Part shown: positions 1,829-17,910 of the stretch, piece after piece
Position numbering within the stretch: the first letter of the stretch is position 1
How the letters are laid out: each line of letters opens with the position of its first letter
NCBI GenBank assembly: GCA_021776915.1
Contig: JAIQZU010000020.1
Span: forward strand, 1 to 45,562
Length of the DNA: 45,562 bases
Reading direction: 5' to 3'
Source of the DNA: Candidatus Scalindua sp.
GTDB taxonomy: Bacteria > Planctomycetota > Brocadiia > Brocadiales > Scalinduaceae
Notes under the pieces: generated by a model
What the model saw: only the letters and a program-made list of their open reading frames with translations
Databases searched by the model: none
Told to the model about the DNA's origin: nothing
Made by a program: the position numbers and the translations under genes

Positions 1829-2959
1829 TTATCCGGCAATAAACTCCTGTACATTATCTCTCTGACCCGTTTCTTCTGAAACTACATCATCCATAATCAA
1901 ATTCAATGCGTTTAGAAGTTTCTGGTTTTCCTCTCTGGTTCTTACAGCAACACGAAAATACTTATTATTCAGACCAGTAAAATTTGAACAATCCCTGATT
2001 ATAATATTGTCTTTTATCAAAAGGGCCTGAATTCCTGATGATGTTATCTCCGCTTTGTCAATCTTCACCAGAATAAAATTGACTGATGGTTGAAACGGCT
2101 GTATGCCATTTATCCCGGATAGACCGTCATACAGGAAAGCCTTTTCCATGGACACGTATTCTCGTGTATTGACAGCGAACTCAACATCGTTAATGGAAGC
2201 ATAACCTGCAATCTGTGCAAATGTGTTAACGGTCCATGGCTCTTTATATTGCATTAATTTATTAACGATAGATTCATTTGCAACAAGATAGCCAAGCCTC
2301 AAGCCGGGGAAGCCGTAAAATTTTGTCAGCGATCTGACCACTATTAGATTGTCAATTAATGATGCCTCTTTTATAACGCTATATTTCTCGCCATCATCAA
2401 CAAAATCCATAAACGCCTCATCTACAACTATCAACCTGTTTGAATTCCTCTTAACAAGCTCTAATATATCTTTTTTCAGTATAAGCTGCCCTGTTGGATT
2501 GTTCGGATTGCATAAAAATACCATACCATCTTCGATATTCTTCAGGCTTGAGAGATCTGTGTTAATCAGTGGAAAGATTCCGTCATCATTTACAATCTCA
2601 ACCACTTCGACATTTGCGTTGGACAGAGCATCTTTAAATTCACTGAATGTAGGCTGCAGGAGGACGCCCTGTCTGGGTTTCATGGCACGGGGTATCAGAT
2701 AAAACAGTTCATTAGAGCCATTACCAATAATTATGTTTGAGTCATTGCATGAAACTTTATCTGCAATAGCTTTTTTCAGGTTTGTACACTCACTGTCCGG
2801 ATAGTTCTTGATATCGTCAAATCGTTCCAAAACAACCTTGTGTACGTCTTCAGGGCAGCCAAGCGGGTTTATACTTGCGCTAAAGTCAATAATTTCATCC
2901 GGATTTAATCCATGCTTATTACAAATTTGATTTATGTTGCCGCCGTGTCCGTTAAGCAT
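1829..2959 (-). CDS. cobD: Threonine-phosphate decarboxylase CobD (PLP enzyme of cobalamin synthesis)
   Basis: A class I PLP-dependent aminotransferase-fold protein of 376 residues. The N-terminal HGGN and DFSASINPLG stretches are typical of CobD, which makes (R)-1-amino-2-propanol O-2-phosphate for the nucleotide-loop linker of cobalamin. The PLP-lysine region reads RSLTKFYGFPGLRLGYL. The closely related HisC (histidinol-phosphate aminotransferase) is the main alternative, but the N-terminal motif and the position behind cbiO in a cobalamin-riboswitch operon favour CobD. The ATG start is at 2959, 56 bp after the cbiO stop. About 20 extra residues follow the normal end (ending DNVQEFIAG). It is the last gene of the operon and converges with the MNT gene. 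Confidence 0.85.
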   Translation of the reverse strand: MLNGHGGNINQICNKHGLNPDEIIDFSASINPLGCPEDVHKVVLERFDDIKNYPDSECTNLKKAIADKVSCNDSNIIIGNGSNELFYLIPRAMKPRQGVLLQPTFSEFKDALSNANVEVVEIVNDDGIFPLINTDLSSLKNIEDGMVFLCNPNNPTGQLILKKDILELVKRNSNRLIVVDEAFMDFVDDGEKYSVIKEASLIDNLIVVRSLTKFYGFPGLRLGYLVANESIVNKLMQYKEPWTVNTFAQIAGYASINDVEFAVNTREYVSMEKAFLYDGLSGINGIQPFQPSVNFILVKIDKAEITSSGIQALLIKDNIIIRDCSNFTGLNNKYFRVAVRTREENQKLLNALNLIMDDVVSEETGQRDNVQEFIAG

Positions 2960-3015: not shown

Positions 3016-3882
3016 TTAGGAAATTTCAGGACTAACAAAGGCATTGTCTTCCAATCTGATTAATTGTGACAGATCCTGTCTGGCCTGCCCGATTGTAAGA
3101 GAAAGTGAGTTTATTGGAAACTTCTCTTTATCCCGCAATACTTCCATCAATTGTGCTATCTGTGGCAGTTCCAGCATAAGACCCTCAAGTTTTCTCGAAT
3201 CTGTAAACACGTCTTCCGGAGTTCCTTCCTGGACAATTATGCCTTTGTCCATGATTGCAACCCTATCAGCAAGCACAGGCACAAGGTCAACTGAATTTGT
3301 GGCGAGTATTATGGTAATACCATGTTTCTTATTCAGTTCATTAAGTATTTTCATCACAATCTTGACGCCTTCCGGATCAAGCCCACTGGTTGGTTCATCT
3401 AATATAAGTATCTCCGGCTTCATGGCAAGGATTCCGGCAATACATATCCGTTTGCTCTGGCCGTAACTGAGTGCGTGAATTGCCTTTTTTGCAAACTCCT
3501 TCATCTTGACTAATTCGAGTGCATTATTTACCCTGCTCACAATTTCATCATAGCTCAGGTTCAGGTTTGTCGGGCCAAATGCAACATCCTCTTCAACTGT
3601 GGGTGCAATGAGCTGATCATTGGGATCCTGGAAAACCATACCAACCTTCCTGAAAATATCGCCCGGTTTAGACTTATTTAATTCTTTATTATCTAATACT
3701 ACCGATCCGGAAGCCGGTTTTAAGAGGCCGTTAAAATGTTTAAGCAATGTAGTCTTTCCTGAACCGTTGGCACCGAGAATTGCAAGAAATTCACCCTCTA
3801 CAACATCTATGTTAACGCCATTCAATGCTTGCGTACCATCAGGATATTTATGTATTAAATTTTCGACCTTAATCTTAATCAT
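3016..3882 (-). CDS. cbiO: Cobalt ECF transporter ATPase CbiO
   Basis: ATP-binding subunit of the energy-coupling-factor cobalt importer, 288 residues. It has Walker A GANGSGKTT (residues 37-45), a Q-loop in VGMVFQDPNDQL, the ABC signature LSYGQSKR and Walker B ILILDEPTSGLD. The C-terminal ~60 residues after the nucleotide-binding domain are usual for CbiO-type ATPases. It would sit on the cytoplasmic side and drive cobalt uptake together with CbiQ (T component) and CbiM (S component), encoded just upstream. A 210-bp gap with two palindromic repeats separates it from cbiQ. No strong Shine-Dalgarno precedes the ATG at 3882. Confidence 0.93.
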   Translation of the reverse strand: MIKIKVENLIHKYPDGTQALNGVNIDVVEGEFLAILGANGSGKTTLLKHFNGLLKPASGSVVLDNKELNKSKPGDIFRKVGMVFQDPNDQLIAPTVEEDVAFGPTNLNLSYDEIVSRVNNALELVKMKEFAKKAIHALSYGQSKRICIAGILAMKPEILILDEPTSGLDPEGVKIVMKILNELNKKHGITIILATNSVDLVPVLADRVAIMDKGIIVQEGTPEDVFTDSRKLEGLMLELPQIAQLMEVLRDKEKFPINSLSLTIGQARQDLSQLIRLEDNAFVSPEIS

Positions 3883-4092: not shown

Positions 4093-4878
4093 TTAAAAAC
4101 AAATCATTTCCAAATAGAATAATGTTGCCAGTAACATTCCACATGACAAGAGTATGGCATAGTCATTTTTTACTAATGGCGTAAGACGGATTGACAACAC
4201 CCTCCCTCCATCATATCCTCTGGATATCATTGCAGTATGAGCGCTCTCAGCCCTGATAATTGACCTGATAATCAGTACACCTCCGAGGTTTCCAAATGAT
4301 TTTATTGTCTTAAACCATGTAACATAGCCCAGTCTGCTTCTCTGCGAAGACATCATTGTCTCAGTTTCTTCTATCAGCAAGAACAGGTATCTATAAACAA
4401 ACGACATTACTTCAATCAACGTCTCCGGTATCTTCATCCAGCGAGCTGCCATGCATATCTTTGAAATTGTTGTGGTGAAGGACAATAAAAGCAAGAGCAT
4501 TACCCCCCCTGCTACTTTTGTGAACAGCAACAGACCAATTAATAACCCCTCTTTTTTCAAAACAAGTTTATAACCCAGGAGTGAACCGGACAACACAGTT
4601 GTCTCACCTTTGTGTAACCCCATTATAAGCATTATAAATACTCCGAAAAAAAGCGGCATTATCATTCGAAGACCCAGGTTCACAAAGGAGACTTTTATGG
4701 ACATTAACAATATTAATGATGTAACAAAGAAAACTAATGGAATTATAATATCATGAGATAAAATATTGAGAATCAAGGCTATTCCAATGTAAAACAGTTT
4801 GACCCTTACCTCTATGTCAGTAAGCCAATTGTTCCTATGCGCAAAATGATCCATGACAACATGCTTTAATATTTCCAT
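4093..4878 (-). CDS. cbiQ: Cobalt ECF transporter transmembrane protein CbiQ
   Basis: T component of the cobalt importer, 261 residues, with several hydrophobic segments between about residues 30 and 165. The cytoplasmic coupling region that contacts the ATPase is visible as RAESAHTAMISRGYDGG around residue 210-225, matching the 'A-R-G' coupling motifs of CbiQ/EcfT proteins. It would transmit ATP hydrolysis from CbiO to CbiM. The start ATG at 4878 has only a poor Shine-Dalgarno. A 194-bp gap with two small hairpins separates it from the cbiN-like gene. Length and motif are normal for the family. Confidence 0.92.
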   Translation of the reverse strand: MEILKHVVMDHFAHRNNWLTDIEVRVKLFYIGIALILNILSHDIIIPLVFFVTSLILLMSIKVSFVNLGLRMIMPLFFGVFIMLIMGLHKGETTVLSGSLLGYKLVLKKEGLLIGLLLFTKVAGGVMLLLLLSFTTTISKICMAARWMKIPETLIEVMSFVYRYLFLLIEETETMMSSQRSRLGYVTWFKTIKSFGNLGGVLIIRSIIRAESAHTAMISRGYDGGRVLSIRLTPLVKNDYAILLSCGMLLATLFYLEMICF

Positions 4879-5072: not shown

Positions 5073-5405
5073 TCAATTCGTCAATTCCTCTTTTTCAACA
5101 AATAGTTTTCTGAAATTGTAGCCGATTATGATGCCGCTGATAAGGCCGAAAAAAGTAAAAACAAACAGTAAAAGATCTCCCTGGTCAGTATTTATGTAAG
5201 GATCCCTTGGCGGATGTCCGTATTTCTCGGCATACTTTCCCACTATACTTACGTCAATTCCCGTCCACTTTTCGGTTTCAGATTCTTTTGTTTCTTTATC
5301 TTCAATACTTTTTATTGTATTGCCAGAGCTTGCTTCAGTTGCACAAAAAACGTTTGAATGGGCAAGACATAATATGAATGTGACAATAATAAGGTATTTT
5401 AACAT
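5073..5405 (-). CDS. CbiN-like accessory protein of the cobalt transporter
   Basis: About 110 residues from the ATG at 5405. A TTG 18 nt upstream is in frame, but GGAGG lies inside that extension and better serves the ATG, and translation from ATG begins directly with a signal peptide (MLKYLIIVTFILCLAHSNVF). Then come a charged periplasmic stretch with WTGIDVSIV and YGHPPRDPYINTDQGDLLL, one transmembrane helix and a short basic/acidic cytoplasmic tail. Signal peptide plus single helix next to cbiM is the topology of CbiN, which assists CbiM in metal loading, but the sequence is not classical CbiN. The PRDPYINTDQGD stretch suggests a conserved variant found with cbiM; this is recalled, not searched. 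Confidence 0.7.
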   Translation of the reverse strand: MLKYLIIVTFILCLAHSNVFCATEASSGNTIKSIEDKETKESETEKWTGIDVSIVGKYAEKYGHPPRDPYINTDQGDLLLFVFTFFGLISGIIIGYNFRKLFVEKEELTN

Positions 5406-5431
5406 AATACCAGAAACCTCCAATCCCTAAA

Positions 5432-6214
5432 TTATTGAACCTTTACAACTTTAAGGTTATGTAAAATGCCTGGACGAACTTTGTAAACATAGGATATAGC
5501 AAAACCTACCACTATACCTTCTGCGACACATAATGGTCCCTGTGAAGTAGTCATGAATACAACAAAGATTTCCAGCATTGCCTTTGCACTATCCATTATA
5601 GCGATCGGAAAAGGTTCTCCCCCTTCGAATACCAAAAGCCCTAATCCGATCGAGGTTCCCATGTAAGTAAATATATCTGATACCACTCCGGCAGCAAAAC
5701 CACACCAGAAAAGTTTCATGCCAATTCTTTGCGCAAGCCTGAATGCAAAATATCCTGAAAATGAGCCGAGTACGCCCATTGAAAAGATATTAACTCCCAG
5801 AGTTGTAAGCCCGCCATGTGCCAGGAAGAGCGCCTGTATAAATAGTGCAATCCCCGCAATCACAACGCTCACAAAAGGCCCTAACAGCATCGCACTCATC
5901 CCAGTCCCGGCAGGGTGCGCAGTTGCCATTCCGTTTAAGCCTACAACAGGAATTGGAAAACACGAAAAAACGAATACGGCAGCCCCAACTAATCCTACCA
6001 GCGGCAAGAAGCCGGGCACCTCTATCTTCTTTTTCTTAAGTTTGAGTGTGCCGATAACAACGAAAGGCATTACCAGAATAAACCAGAAGATAGCCCATTT
6101 TGCAGGCAAAATACCTTCTGTAATATGCATACCAAAGGCAAAATCCGGTATCATAATAATCGAAATCAAGATGAGTGAAAACAGAATTGATCTTTTCATT
6201 TTAAACATATCCAC
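5432..6214 (-). CDS. cbiM: Cobalt transport substrate-binding membrane protein CbiM
   Basis: S component of the cobalt ECF importer, 260 residues. A cleavable signal-like segment (residues 1-28) precedes MHITEG at 29-34. In the CbiM/NikM family the processed N-terminal Met-His supplies metal ligands, so cleavage just before Met29 would give the active form. The following membrane region includes the conserved NGMATAHPAGTGMSAMLLGP and AHGGLTTLGVNIFSMGVLG stretches. It is encoded 26 bp downstream of the porin and 27 bp upstream of the cbiN-like start, so all are probably co-transcribed. Cobalt rather than nickel is inferred from the cobalamin riboswitches and cobD. Confidence 0.93.
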   Translation of the reverse strand: MDMFKMKRSILFSLILISIIMIPDFAFGMHITEGILPAKWAIFWFILVMPFVVIGTLKLKKKKIEVPGFLPLVGLVGAAVFVFSCFPIPVVGLNGMATAHPAGTGMSAMLLGPFVSVVIAGIALFIQALFLAHGGLTTLGVNIFSMGVLGSFSGYFAFRLAQRIGMKLFWCGFAAGVVSDIFTYMGTSIGLGLLVFEGGEPFPIAIMDSAKAMLEIFVVFMTTSQGPLCVAEGIVVGFAISYVYKVRPGILHNLKVVKVQ

Positions 6215-6239: not shown

Positions 6240-7589
6240 CTAAAAATTTATCTGAAATCTCACTATAGAAACTACGGCATTATCCAGATCAGGATCTGCC
6301 CCCGGATTGAAAATAGTCTGCACTCCCGGCTGTATAGCAAGCCAGGGAAATATTTGTGCCCTGTATGTTAATTCCACGGCTGTTTCATGACTGTCCATTT
6401 TTTCAATATCTCTCAAATCTTCGCTTATGGAGGCATGTGCCACTGCCAGGCCAAGTATATCATCCTCTCTGGCAGGAATAATCCCCTGATAATGAATCCC
6501 CCCCCCTACATATAAATCAACCTCGTTTCTGTCACTCGGCACTCCTCCGATCTGGAAAAAAGCCCCAAGCCCTTTTTTTCCTTCACCAGGGATCAGCATC
6601 TGGTCGGCAATAAAATAGAGACCGTAATTATCAGAATGTCGAATTGGATTTTCGTTTTCATCCCTGTCCCGGACATCATCAAATTCAGCAGTGTGATACC
6701 ACCATCCCAATTTGTACGTTCCGGGCATGGTTCGGCTCTCTTCCTGATCACCAAAATGATATCCTAATTCATAAAAGTTCACAAAGCCCTCTTTGCTGTC
6801 CAGTTTCCAGTCAAATCCTCCATTGTTCTTGCCCGGATCACCGTCAGATATTTCAGCCATAAAATACAAGTTTTCAGTGGGTTCCCATTTTATTCTGAAA
6901 CCAAGAGCTGCTACCGGAAAATTGGAAACCGGAATATTATTTGAGATCTCATTATTAAAACCGAAAGAAGAGTGTAAAAAAAGCAACCCATACTCGGAGA
7001 TGTTAAACTCGCTATTCAAATCATGTTGCCCTATTAACACGGACAAGTCGGTGCCATACAAATCAAAAGAGTGTTCATACCAAAATTCATACAACTTTGT
7101 CCCCTTTTCAGACTCGAAGTTGTCAGATCCCTGCAAATCACCAATATAGTCTTCTGATGGGTTAGCTCCATGGTGGTTGAAAAAGTGTCCGTGAAATGTT
7201 CCACCCTTCCAGAAACCTGCTTTTTCCGTATCAAATTCAGCTATCAAATCAGTATTTGAAAGATAGCTGATAGAGGTATCAATACCGGAACCAGCCCTCT
7301 TTAATCCTCCTGAGTGATTGGTTACAAAGTCACCTGTGAAAACTATATCAAGTGAAATCCCCTTACTTTCAAGAATGTTCTTTAGCCTAAAATCTAAAAG
7401 ATGCTCATGTTCAAAAAACCTTGGATCAAGAATACCTGATGAATGAACTGTACTGAATAAACCATCAACAGATTCTCTTTCTCCAGCATGAACATACTTG
7501 TCAAATTCCCCATCTGTTACCATAGCAAACGTTGAATCAAAAAAAAGCACAATTAAGAATAGGCGTACTAGACAATATGCATACTTCAT
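6240..7589 (-). CDS. OprB-type outer-membrane porin in the cobalamin-riboswitch operon
   Basis: About 449 residues from ATG 7589, chosen because AAAGGAG lies 6 nt upstream; an ATG two codons earlier (7595) with GGAGGGG is nearly as good. The N-terminus is a signal peptide (hydrophobic core FLIVLFF, then STFA). The rest shows alternating aromatic/polar strands, YHTAEFDD, LGAFFQIGGVP, ETAVELTYRAQIFPWLAIQP and a C-terminal aromatic residue (VRFQINF), as expected for carbohydrate-selective OprB porins (PF04966), which are 400-450 residues. It lies between a cobalamin riboswitch and cbiM, so it probably passes cobalt, or a cobalt or corrinoid complex, across the outer membrane instead of sugar. 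That substrate is inferred from context. Confidence 0.8.
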   Translation of the reverse strand: MKYAYCLVRLFLIVLFFDSTFAMVTDGEFDKYVHAGERESVDGLFSTVHSSGILDPRFFEHEHLLDFRLKNILESKGISLDIVFTGDFVTNHSGGLKRAGSGIDTSISYLSNTDLIAEFDTEKAGFWKGGTFHGHFFNHHGANPSEDYIGDLQGSDNFESEKGTKLYEFWYEHSFDLYGTDLSVLIGQHDLNSEFNISEYGLLFLHSSFGFNNEISNNIPVSNFPVAALGFRIKWEPTENLYFMAEISDGDPGKNNGGFDWKLDSKEGFVNFYELGYHFGDQEESRTMPGTYKLGWWYHTAEFDDVRDRDENENPIRHSDNYGLYFIADQMLIPGEGKKGLGAFFQIGGVPSDRNEVDLYVGGGIHYQGIIPAREDDILGLAVAHASISEDLRDIEKMDSHETAVELTYRAQIFPWLAIQPGVQTIFNPGADPDLDNAVVSIVRFQINF

Positions 7590-7633
7590 CTGCATCTCCT
7601 TTCCCCTCCGGAAACGAAAGAGTAAATAACCAT

Positions 7634-7790
7634 GCAAGATAGGTCTCCTGGCTAGCGTCTCAAACCTACTCTCTGCACCTTCCCGCCAGAACTTATATGA
7701 CAGTCTGTCCTGACAGTGGCATACTTGCAGATTTCGTCAACGCATACAGTTGCGGGGCAGCGTTCTTATGAACTTCCCTTACATCCTGCA
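7634..7790 (-). promoter_or_regulatory. Cobalamin riboswitch 1 (proximal, in front of the porin)
   Basis: Read leftward, it has the conserved core GCTGCCCCGCAACTG (7761-7747) and the B12 box GCCAGGAGACCTATC (7652-7638), with intervening arms in the usual order. Its 3' end is only about 30 nt from the porin's Shine-Dalgarno (around 7596-7608). No terminator follows it, so control is probably at translation initiation by sequestering that site. It is the second of two such aptamers in the same leader. Confidence 0.92.
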
Positions 7791-7854
7791 TAAAATATAA
7801 TATTTATTTTGTAGTGTTGATTTTATCTATAAATCGGTTTCACACCCCCTTTCT

Positions 7855-7901
7855 TTAAATAAAAAAAGCCCGTATCCTTTCATAGTAAAAGGGTACAGGC
7901 T
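7855..7901 (-). terminator. Intrinsic terminator between the two cobalamin riboswitches
   Basis: Leftward reading gives the arm AGCCTGTACCCTTT (7901-7888), a 7-nt loop, the arm AAAGGATACGGGCT (7880-7867), then a run of seven Ts and further T-rich sequence. The 14-bp stem has one C-A mismatch and one G-T pair. The T-run is only on the leftward side, so it acts on transcripts coming through riboswitch 2, about 80 nt upstream. It would stop the operon transcript before riboswitch 1 and the porin. Confidence 0.85.
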
Positions 7902-7983
7902 ATCAGTTAGTCTGCTTTCGAACGAGACTGCAGACTTATTTCTGTTGACCTTCACCTTCTTTACCATCGAAGATTATGTGAAG

Positions 7984-8160
7984 CAATTACAGGCAGGTCT
8001 TCTGACTATCGAATCAACCTACTCATTGCGCCTTCCCATCCACCTTGAGGTGGGCAGTGACTTACAGTCTTACAAATAATCGGTAAGACCGGCAATTTTC
8101 GTCATCGACTACAGCGGCGGGTCCGTTCCCTGTCCTACAAGGGATTCCCTTTTAAATCCC
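7984..8160 (-). promoter_or_regulatory. Cobalamin riboswitch 2 (distal, upstream of the terminator)
   Basis: Leftward reading gives AAAAGGGAATCCC at the 5' side, the core GACCCGCCGCTGTAG (8123-8109), a GC-rich variable hairpin (around 8037-8055) and the B12 box AGTCAGAAGACCTGCC (8007-7992). It is a complete second cobalamin aptamer in the same direction as riboswitch 1. The downstream terminator at 7901-7855 is a natural expression platform, suggesting transcriptional attenuation when the corrinoid is bound. A 46-codon frame (7967-7827) runs through the terminator but has no Shine-Dalgarno and is not called. Confidence 0.92.
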
Positions 8161-8207
8161 ACTCTTTAACTCAAAGAATAGGATTACCTGTAACTTTATT
8201 CTCAAAT

Positions 8208-8213
8208 TGTCAA
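8208..8213 (-). promoter_or_regulatory. Candidate -35 box for the cobalt operon
   Basis: TTGACA on the minus strand lies about 50 bp upstream of riboswitch 2. No good -10 is spaced at 16-18 nt; the nearest AT-rich matches (TAATCC, TATTCT) are at longer spacing. Weak support. The rest of the gap, 8214-8417, holds nothing recognisable. Confidence 0.3.
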
Positions 8214-8417
8214 AATAACTGCTGAATTCTACTTTTTGGTGCATAGTATGTCAACTGATTTCGTATATTGATTCTATATCATGTAAACAGGAATATATTT
8301 TCAGATTATAACATCCATTTGATAGTCACAGATAAATATTATTGTACTGTTTTTCCAAATTTATAAAATAATGATGTAGATGCCAGCGCTTGTTTATTCT
8401 GGGATTTTTACTTATCA

Positions 8418-17382: not shown

Positions 17383-17910
17383 CTAAAACTCTATCCCCTT
17401 TTGTGCCTTGATACCCTTAGAATACTGGTGTTTTACTTCCTTCATCTCTGTAACTAAATCCGCTTTCTCAACTATACTTTTATGTACGTCCCTTCCTGTC
17501 AGGATGAGGTGTAGACGGTCCGGTTTTTCCTCGAATAACGTTAATACCTCCTCAACAGGTAACAGGCCATAGCTGATAACATAATTAACTTCATCCAGTA
17601 TAACCATATCGTATTCATCTGAAAGGATTTCATTCCTGGCTTGATTCCATGATTGAGTAACGTTCTCTTTAGCTTCATTTTCACTCAATTTTGAATTTGA
17701 GCGAACAAAGCCCTTTCCCAGCGGTTTAATCTTAAAATCAGGCCCAAGTCTCTTTATAGATTCAAGCTCGCCGTAATTCCACGTTCCCTTTATAAACTGA
17801 AGCATTAATATCTTTAACCCCTGCCCTACGGCTCTCATAGCCTGACCAATTGCAGCAGTTGTTTTCCCTTTTCCGTTTCCGGTAAATACAATTATTAGTC
17901 CTTTATTCAA
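17383..17910 (-). CDS. cobO: Cob(I)yrinic acid a,c-diamide adenosyltransferase CobO/BtuR
   Basis: 175 residues with an N-terminal P-loop GNGKGKTT (residues 11-18), typical of CobO/CobA/BtuR adenosyltransferases. Further family features are LKILMLQFIKGTWNYGE, the Walker B-like DMVILDEVNYVISYGLL and the C-terminal LTGRDVHKSIVEKADLVTEMKEVKH. It transfers the 5'-deoxyadenosyl group from ATP to the reduced cobalt of the corrinoid. The start is TTG 17910 with only weak ribosome-binding sequence. It is not in the riboswitch operon but is divergent from the NnrS fusion gene, with a 207-bp shared upstream region. Confidence 0.94.
   Translation of the reverse strand: MNKGLIIVFTGNGKGKTTAAIGQAMRAVGQGLKILMLQFIKGTWNYGELESIKRLGPDFKIKPLGKGFVRSNSKLSENEAKENVTQSWNQARNEILSDEYDMVILDEVNYVISYGLLPVEEVLTLFEEKPDRLHLILTGRDVHKSIVEKADLVTEMKEVKHQYSKGIKAQKGIEF

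Follow-up and report, generated by a model that had tools for sequence, protein, structure and literature searches.

A probable bi-mechanism tandem cobalamin riboswitch in the leader of a porin and cobalt-uptake operon of Candidatus Scalindua

Two cobalamin riboswitches with a terminator between them lie in one operon leader of an anammox planctomycete (Candidatus Scalindua, order Brocadiales). The locus raises the question of whether the two act as successive layers of control on one transcript, and how each is wired to its own output. The window is the whole stretch of DNA analysed, 45,562 nucleotides in length; coordinates are positions in the window, and the leader and operon are on the minus strand. 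The whole analysis is sequence-based, and the genomes of relatives are mostly metagenome assemblies. The leader is probably a bi-mechanism tandem cobalamin riboswitch, predicted to switch the operon OFF at high cobalamin.

Leader and operon

The functional unit extends from the promoter at 8254 through the start codon at 7587 (minus strand). The first aptamer, RS1 (7975..8206), matches the cobalamin riboswitch model RF00174 with 79.9 bits (E 3e-18), and the second, RS2 (7621..7803), with 65.1 bits (E 6e-14). Both cover the model at full length (1-189), and in the covariance search both score far above the gathering score of 31.5 bits. RF00174 is the best match of each within its clan, and both possess the complete periphery typical of AdoCbl-type switches. 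A preliminary description had placed two complete B12 aptamers in the same orientation in one leader, at 7634-8213, and had proposed a check against RF00174; both segments pass the model, and the interval is correct to within a few bases. No other RF00174 match was found in the 3.79-Mb assembly, and a permissive search of the surrounding kilobase gave no further credible cobalamin riboswitch match. The linker between RS1 and RS2 is 171 nt long and gene-free.

A sigma-70-type promoter, TTGACA-17-TAGAAT (8226..8254, 11/12 matches), is the only strong promoter before the porin. No strong promoter was found between RS1 and RS2 of the window, where the best linker sequence has 8/12 matches. The sole strong promoter is positioned 5' of RS1, and the two riboswitches may share one transcript.

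Downstream of RS2 the order is Shine-Dalgarno, porin, cbiM, cbiN candidate, cbiQ, cbiO-like ATPase and aminotransferase. The first gene encodes an OprB-family porin (6240..7589, start codon 7589-7587; PF04966, E 3e-65). It is followed by cbiM for cobalt uptake (5432..6208; PF01891, E 6e-46), which has its own Shine-Dalgarno, GGAGT, about 25 nt past the porin stop codon. The cbiN candidate (5073..5423) is assigned by its place between cbiM and cbiQ alone; a Pfam search with it gave zero matches. Next are cbiQ (4093..4878; PF02361, E 7e-37), a cbiO-like ABC ATPase (3016..3882; PF00005, E 9e-34) and a class I/II aminotransferase (1829..2959; PF00155, E 7e-47), which is possibly CobD/HisC-like, the CobD assignment being inferred. 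A corrinoid adenosyltransferase, CobO/BtuR (PF02572), is encoded 9 kb off at 17383-17910 (minus strand) and is without its own riboswitch. An RND-type efflux pump (PF00873; 8418-11540) is likewise encoded on the minus strand, ending about 160 bases before the riboswitch promoter.

Aptamer subtypes, platforms and kissing loops

RS1 is of a terminator-type subtype with the core CCGC-CG-CUG / CAGAAGACC. RS2 is of an RBS-type subtype with the core CCGC-AA-CUG / CAGGAGACC; the window copy has no P2 hairpin. These core signatures hold across the order with few exceptions. In a tree of conserved blocks 94 of 98 aptamers group by position, RS1 or RS2, at low branch support (0.45); the remaining four are RS1-type aptamers in second position. 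By their sequences, RS1 and RS2 are distinct, old subtypes. Recent tandem duplication of a single aptamer was considered and rejected, because RS1 and RS2 cluster by position across families.

An intrinsic terminator with a T-run after the distal aptamer, as described earlier, is present at 7861..7901: its stem (7901-7867) has 15 pairs with one C-A mismatch, is followed by 7 T and folds at -17.7 kcal/mol. A simple terminator scan overlooked it because of the C-A mismatch. Terminators of -12 kcal/mol or better occur in the linkers of 52 of 53 doublets, compared with 1 of 53 shuffled linkers. After the second aptamer a terminator of this strength occurs in only 5/53 doublets, and all five carry the first-type (RS1) kissing-loop key; the subtype of an aptamer is thus linked to the type of its platform. 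Five loci (L095, L098, L104, L111 and L092) are doublets of two consecutive terminator-type riboswitches; L095 and L098 additionally have an RBS-type riboswitch about 2 kb downstream.

The P13 hairpin of RS1 (7954..7974; arms AUCUUC/GAAGGU, fold -4.8 kcal/mol) displays the loop L13, CG-AU-GGU, at 7969-7963, which pairs with L5. The 3' arm of P13 (7947..7962) is the predicted antiterminator strand, able to form 12 pairs with the 5' arm of the terminator at -10.7 kcal/mol, an energy between those of P13 and of the terminator. The antiterminator duplex outscores P13 in 48/48 relatives. Cognate arms pair hardly better than arms exchanged between families (-9.5 and -9.3 kcal/mol, compared with -7.9 for shuffled sequences), because both arms are conserved; therefore the kissing loop was used as the main evidence on wiring. 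Shifting the register as a control for P13 pairing gave no information: the arms are pyrimidine and purine runs, in which pairing by register is not diagnostic. Between P13 and the terminator an accessory hairpin, AGTCTGC...GCAGACT (7909..7936), was read in the sequence; a similar element occurs in single cbiM leaders of relatives.

The P13 hairpin of RS2 (7596..7622, predicted by folding) includes L13, CG-GA-GGG, at 7610-7604, complementary to L5, and the Shine-Dalgarno AAAGGAG at 7602-7596. The Shine-Dalgarno has a mean unpaired probability of 0.18, and this value is low in nearly all relatives; two alternative pairings are available to the window hairpin. The earlier placement of the proximal aptamer shortly before the porin ribosome-binding site stands, while the distance, given as about 30 nt, is about 20-25 nt. 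No terminator was found after RS2 in the window, which sets the leader apart from pseudo-cooperative (two-terminator) tandems.

The kissing loop of cobalamin riboswitches forms between L5 of the aptamer and L13 of the platform, with UCCCG as the L5 consensus (PMC10653944). L5 of RS1 is ACCCG (8118..8122), one half of the predicted kissing loop, and L5 of RS2 is CCCCG (7753..7757); each is complementary to its own L13. Across the doublets RS1 has an L5 of ACCCG or UACCG and RS2 one of CCCCG; L13 consists of CG, 1-2 bases and then GGU, GUA or GGG. Three key pairs of L5 and L13 result: ACC/GGU, UAC/GUA and CCC/GGG. L5 matches the L13 of its own platform in 98 of 100 readable cases and that of the other platform in 2 of 100, with about 4-7% expected for random triplets; the cases come from related sequences and are not independent events. 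The three keys with matched changes on both sides still imply compensating change. Platform and L13 are separate for the two aptamers, so that the shared platform of glycine-type cooperative tandems is absent. An alternative in which the kissing contact would come from an adjacent hairpin loop in each aptamer was abandoned, since it is L5 that carries the conserved CCCG-type sequence.

Distribution and origin of the doublet

Same-strand RF00174 doublets occur in 12/17 genomes of the family of the window and in many genomes of other families of the order. The total for Brocadiales is 54 doublets in 46 of 62 genomes; 53 were analysed together and one more was extracted later. Beyond the order, four other genomes of the class (G063, G068, G071, G074) show the same signature; the RS1 core loop of G063 was unreadable by the search pattern. 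Among 122 genomes sampled from other classes two had adjacent matches, neither with the full signature; genomes with a single match were searched under strict filters only. Since the same pair recurs across the whole order, it is not a local oddity and probably represents a conserved two-stage valve.

A promoter with at least 10/12 matches is located upstream of RS1 in 13/14 Scalinduaceae, 7/8 f2 and 8/28 Brocadiaceae doublets. Several of the Brocadiaceae doublets that lack such a promoter seem, on reading the sequence, to lie directly 3' of another gene. In the linkers such promoters number 1 in 53, with 2.4 expected by chance from shuffled sequences. The earlier reading of two layers, transcription and then translation, is supported by this arrangement of one promoter 5' of both riboswitches and none found between them.

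The first controlled gene in the order mostly encodes an outer-membrane protein, an OprB-type porin in the window. Elsewhere in the order there are apparent TonB-dependent receptors, then CobN-like, ExbB-like, BtuF/BtuCD-like and CbiZ-like proteins, named by sequence reading. All of these putative functions fit cobalt or cobamide uptake.

In relatives, a Shine-Dalgarno and start codon with an immediate or near-immediate stop are found just 5' of an aptamer. The forms are ATGTAA, ATGTAG, ATGTGA, GTGTAG, TTGAGTTAA and TTGCARTAA. Such mini-ORFs occur upstream of RS1 in 16/53 doublets (1.2 expected; for example L102, L103, L106, L112) and in the linker in 12/53 (2.1 expected; for example L062, L115, L116). 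They are absent from the window. One guess is that the mini-ORF is a ribosome parking site.

The RS1 leader of the window, promoter included, is closest, at 86-89% identity, to the single-RS1 leaders that directly precede cbiM in other Scalindua; the best two matches, and eight of the best nine, are single-riboswitch leaders. Four genomes (G002, G008, G011, G012) have a single RS1 with terminator before cbiM, without RS2. The nearest relative of the window RS2 is the RS2 before the same porin in G007. The RS1 leader looks like an ortholog of the single-riboswitch cbiM leaders, and the pair like a mosaic. The simplest account is that a cassette of RS2 plus porin entered the leader behind the RS1 terminator, separating the cbi attenuator from cbiM; RS1 would then gate all genes of the operon, and the direct effect of RS2 would be confined to the porin. 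The translational switch would directly touch only the porin because cbiM has its own Shine-Dalgarno. In one relative (L066, G003:C138) the RS2 before the porin is degenerate, with 26 bits, below the cut-off, and its L13 match is lost. The second layer can therefore be lost, and the sequence suggests that in G003 the translational layer has been.

Predicted mechanism, alternatives and related systems

With anatomy, promoter position, terminator, kissing-loop complementarity and conservation as described above, the ligand, the OFF direction, the switching and the use of each layer are taken by analogy from the riboswitch family. Transcription would start just 5' of RS1. Cobalamin bound to RS1 would bring L5 to kiss L13, and P13 would form; its 3' arm would then be withheld from the terminator 5' arm, the terminator would fold and transcription of the porin and cbiMNQO would stop. 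In ligand-free RS1 the P13 3' arm would pair with the terminator 5' arm and allow RNA polymerase to read through. Read-through transcripts would reach RS2, where in the cobalamin-bound form the L5-L13 contact would stabilise the hairpin over the porin Shine-Dalgarno. RS1 would serve as the operon gate and RS2 as the porin gate, also acting on existing mRNA.

RS2 might sense another corrinoid than RS1, as the preliminary description also considered, or differ from it in affinity, making the leader a two-input or two-threshold device in place of a redundant two-layer one. The core subtypes CG/GAAG and AA/GGAG do stay separate in the order and in the class genomes outside it, and the missing P2 hairpin of the window RS2 points the same way; however, both aptamers match RF00174 best within the clan and both carry the full AdoCbl-type periphery, and to our knowledge no link between this core difference and ligand selectivity is known; the reading is unlikely. 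It is quite improbable that RS1 alone regulates and that RS2 is a passenger of minor effect, brought in together with the porin gene. The orthology of the RS1 leader to single cbiM leaders, the closeness of RS2 to the RS2 before the same porin in another species and the degenerate copy in G003 are consistent with a passenger, but the window RS2 retains an intact B12 box, the L5-L13 match and the hairpin over the Shine-Dalgarno, and the RS2 module shows order-wide conservation. A division into two transcripts, one started at a separate promoter of RS2 and the other no more than a short attenuated or regulatory RNA from RS1 and its terminator, could draw on the A+T-rich linker and its weak promoter-like sequence (best 8/12). 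Against it are the promoter of at least 10/12 located 5' of RS1 in the window and in 20/22 Scalinduaceae and f2 doublets, and the frequency of linker promoters below the shuffled expectation; it is highly improbable.

The bi-mechanism reading can be set beside known systems. A 2022 review defines bi-mechanism tandem riboswitches as acting on transcription and then on translation, and names SAM-II/SAM-V and some SAM-II doublets among them (PMC9481103). The leader of the window agrees with this in having two complete riboswitches with no ORF between them, the first with an intrinsic terminator, and a second without terminator whose Shine-Dalgarno lies in the L13 hairpin, the latter at the level of sequence only. 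As in the SAM-II/SAM-V and SAM-II/SAM-II tandems (PMC9481103), a terminator follows the first riboswitch, the second would control ribosome access, the same gene would be governed and the ligand is presumed the same; unlike there, the leader joins two cobalamin aptamers that differ in subtype and in kissing-loop key. The same review counts 26 AdoCbl doublets, likewise with two cobalamin riboswitches per leader, and lists them as pseudo-cooperative, with platforms not comprehensively typed (PMC9481103); in the present set the second platform is predicted to be translational and the doublets are concentrated in one order. The view of the preliminary description that an intervening terminator is uncommon is not supported: a 2025 survey has one in 805 of 1,442 inter-aptamer sequences (PMC12452182). 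The combination with two control modes is published for the SAM tandems named above (PMC9481103).

The RS1 platform resembles that of P. megaterium metE in its L5-L13 kissing loop and in its antiterminator of P13 3' arm and terminator 5' arm, an arrangement shown there by mutants (PMC10653944); that kissing loop has five continuous pairs and a single aptamer was tested, whereas L13 here has a bulge of 1-2 nt. The RS2 platform resembles E. coli btuB and env8HyCbl, where formation of the kissing loop strengthens P13 and masks the ribosome-binding site (PMC10653944); unlike RS2, these have no attenuating riboswitch upstream. In the literature searched, with subscription papers mostly outside it, no description of a bi-mechanism cobalamin tandem or of tandem anammox cobalamin riboswitches was found. 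The bi-mechanism kind is already known; the conserved cobalamin version with two subtypes seems to be undescribed.

A wider proposal is tentative and rather doubtful: an old, class-wide two-stage cobalamin valve of anammox planctomycetes and their relatives, its subtypes kept distinct and privately keyed for different corrinoids or thresholds, with genes passed between leaders as riboswitch-plus-gene cassettes behind an attenuator. Transcription-then-translation tandems, documented for SAM, now have a large conserved cobalamin set, with 54 doublets in one order compared with 26 in the 2022 survey. The three matched kissing-loop keys are a natural experiment on how sensors of the same class avoid cross-talk in one RNA. 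The window also offers a route of doublet assembly, in which a riboswitch-plus-gene cassette would be placed behind an existing attenuator. Growing anammox bacteria is difficult, and data on their gene regulation are few; a testable B12/cobalt circuit would therefore be useful.
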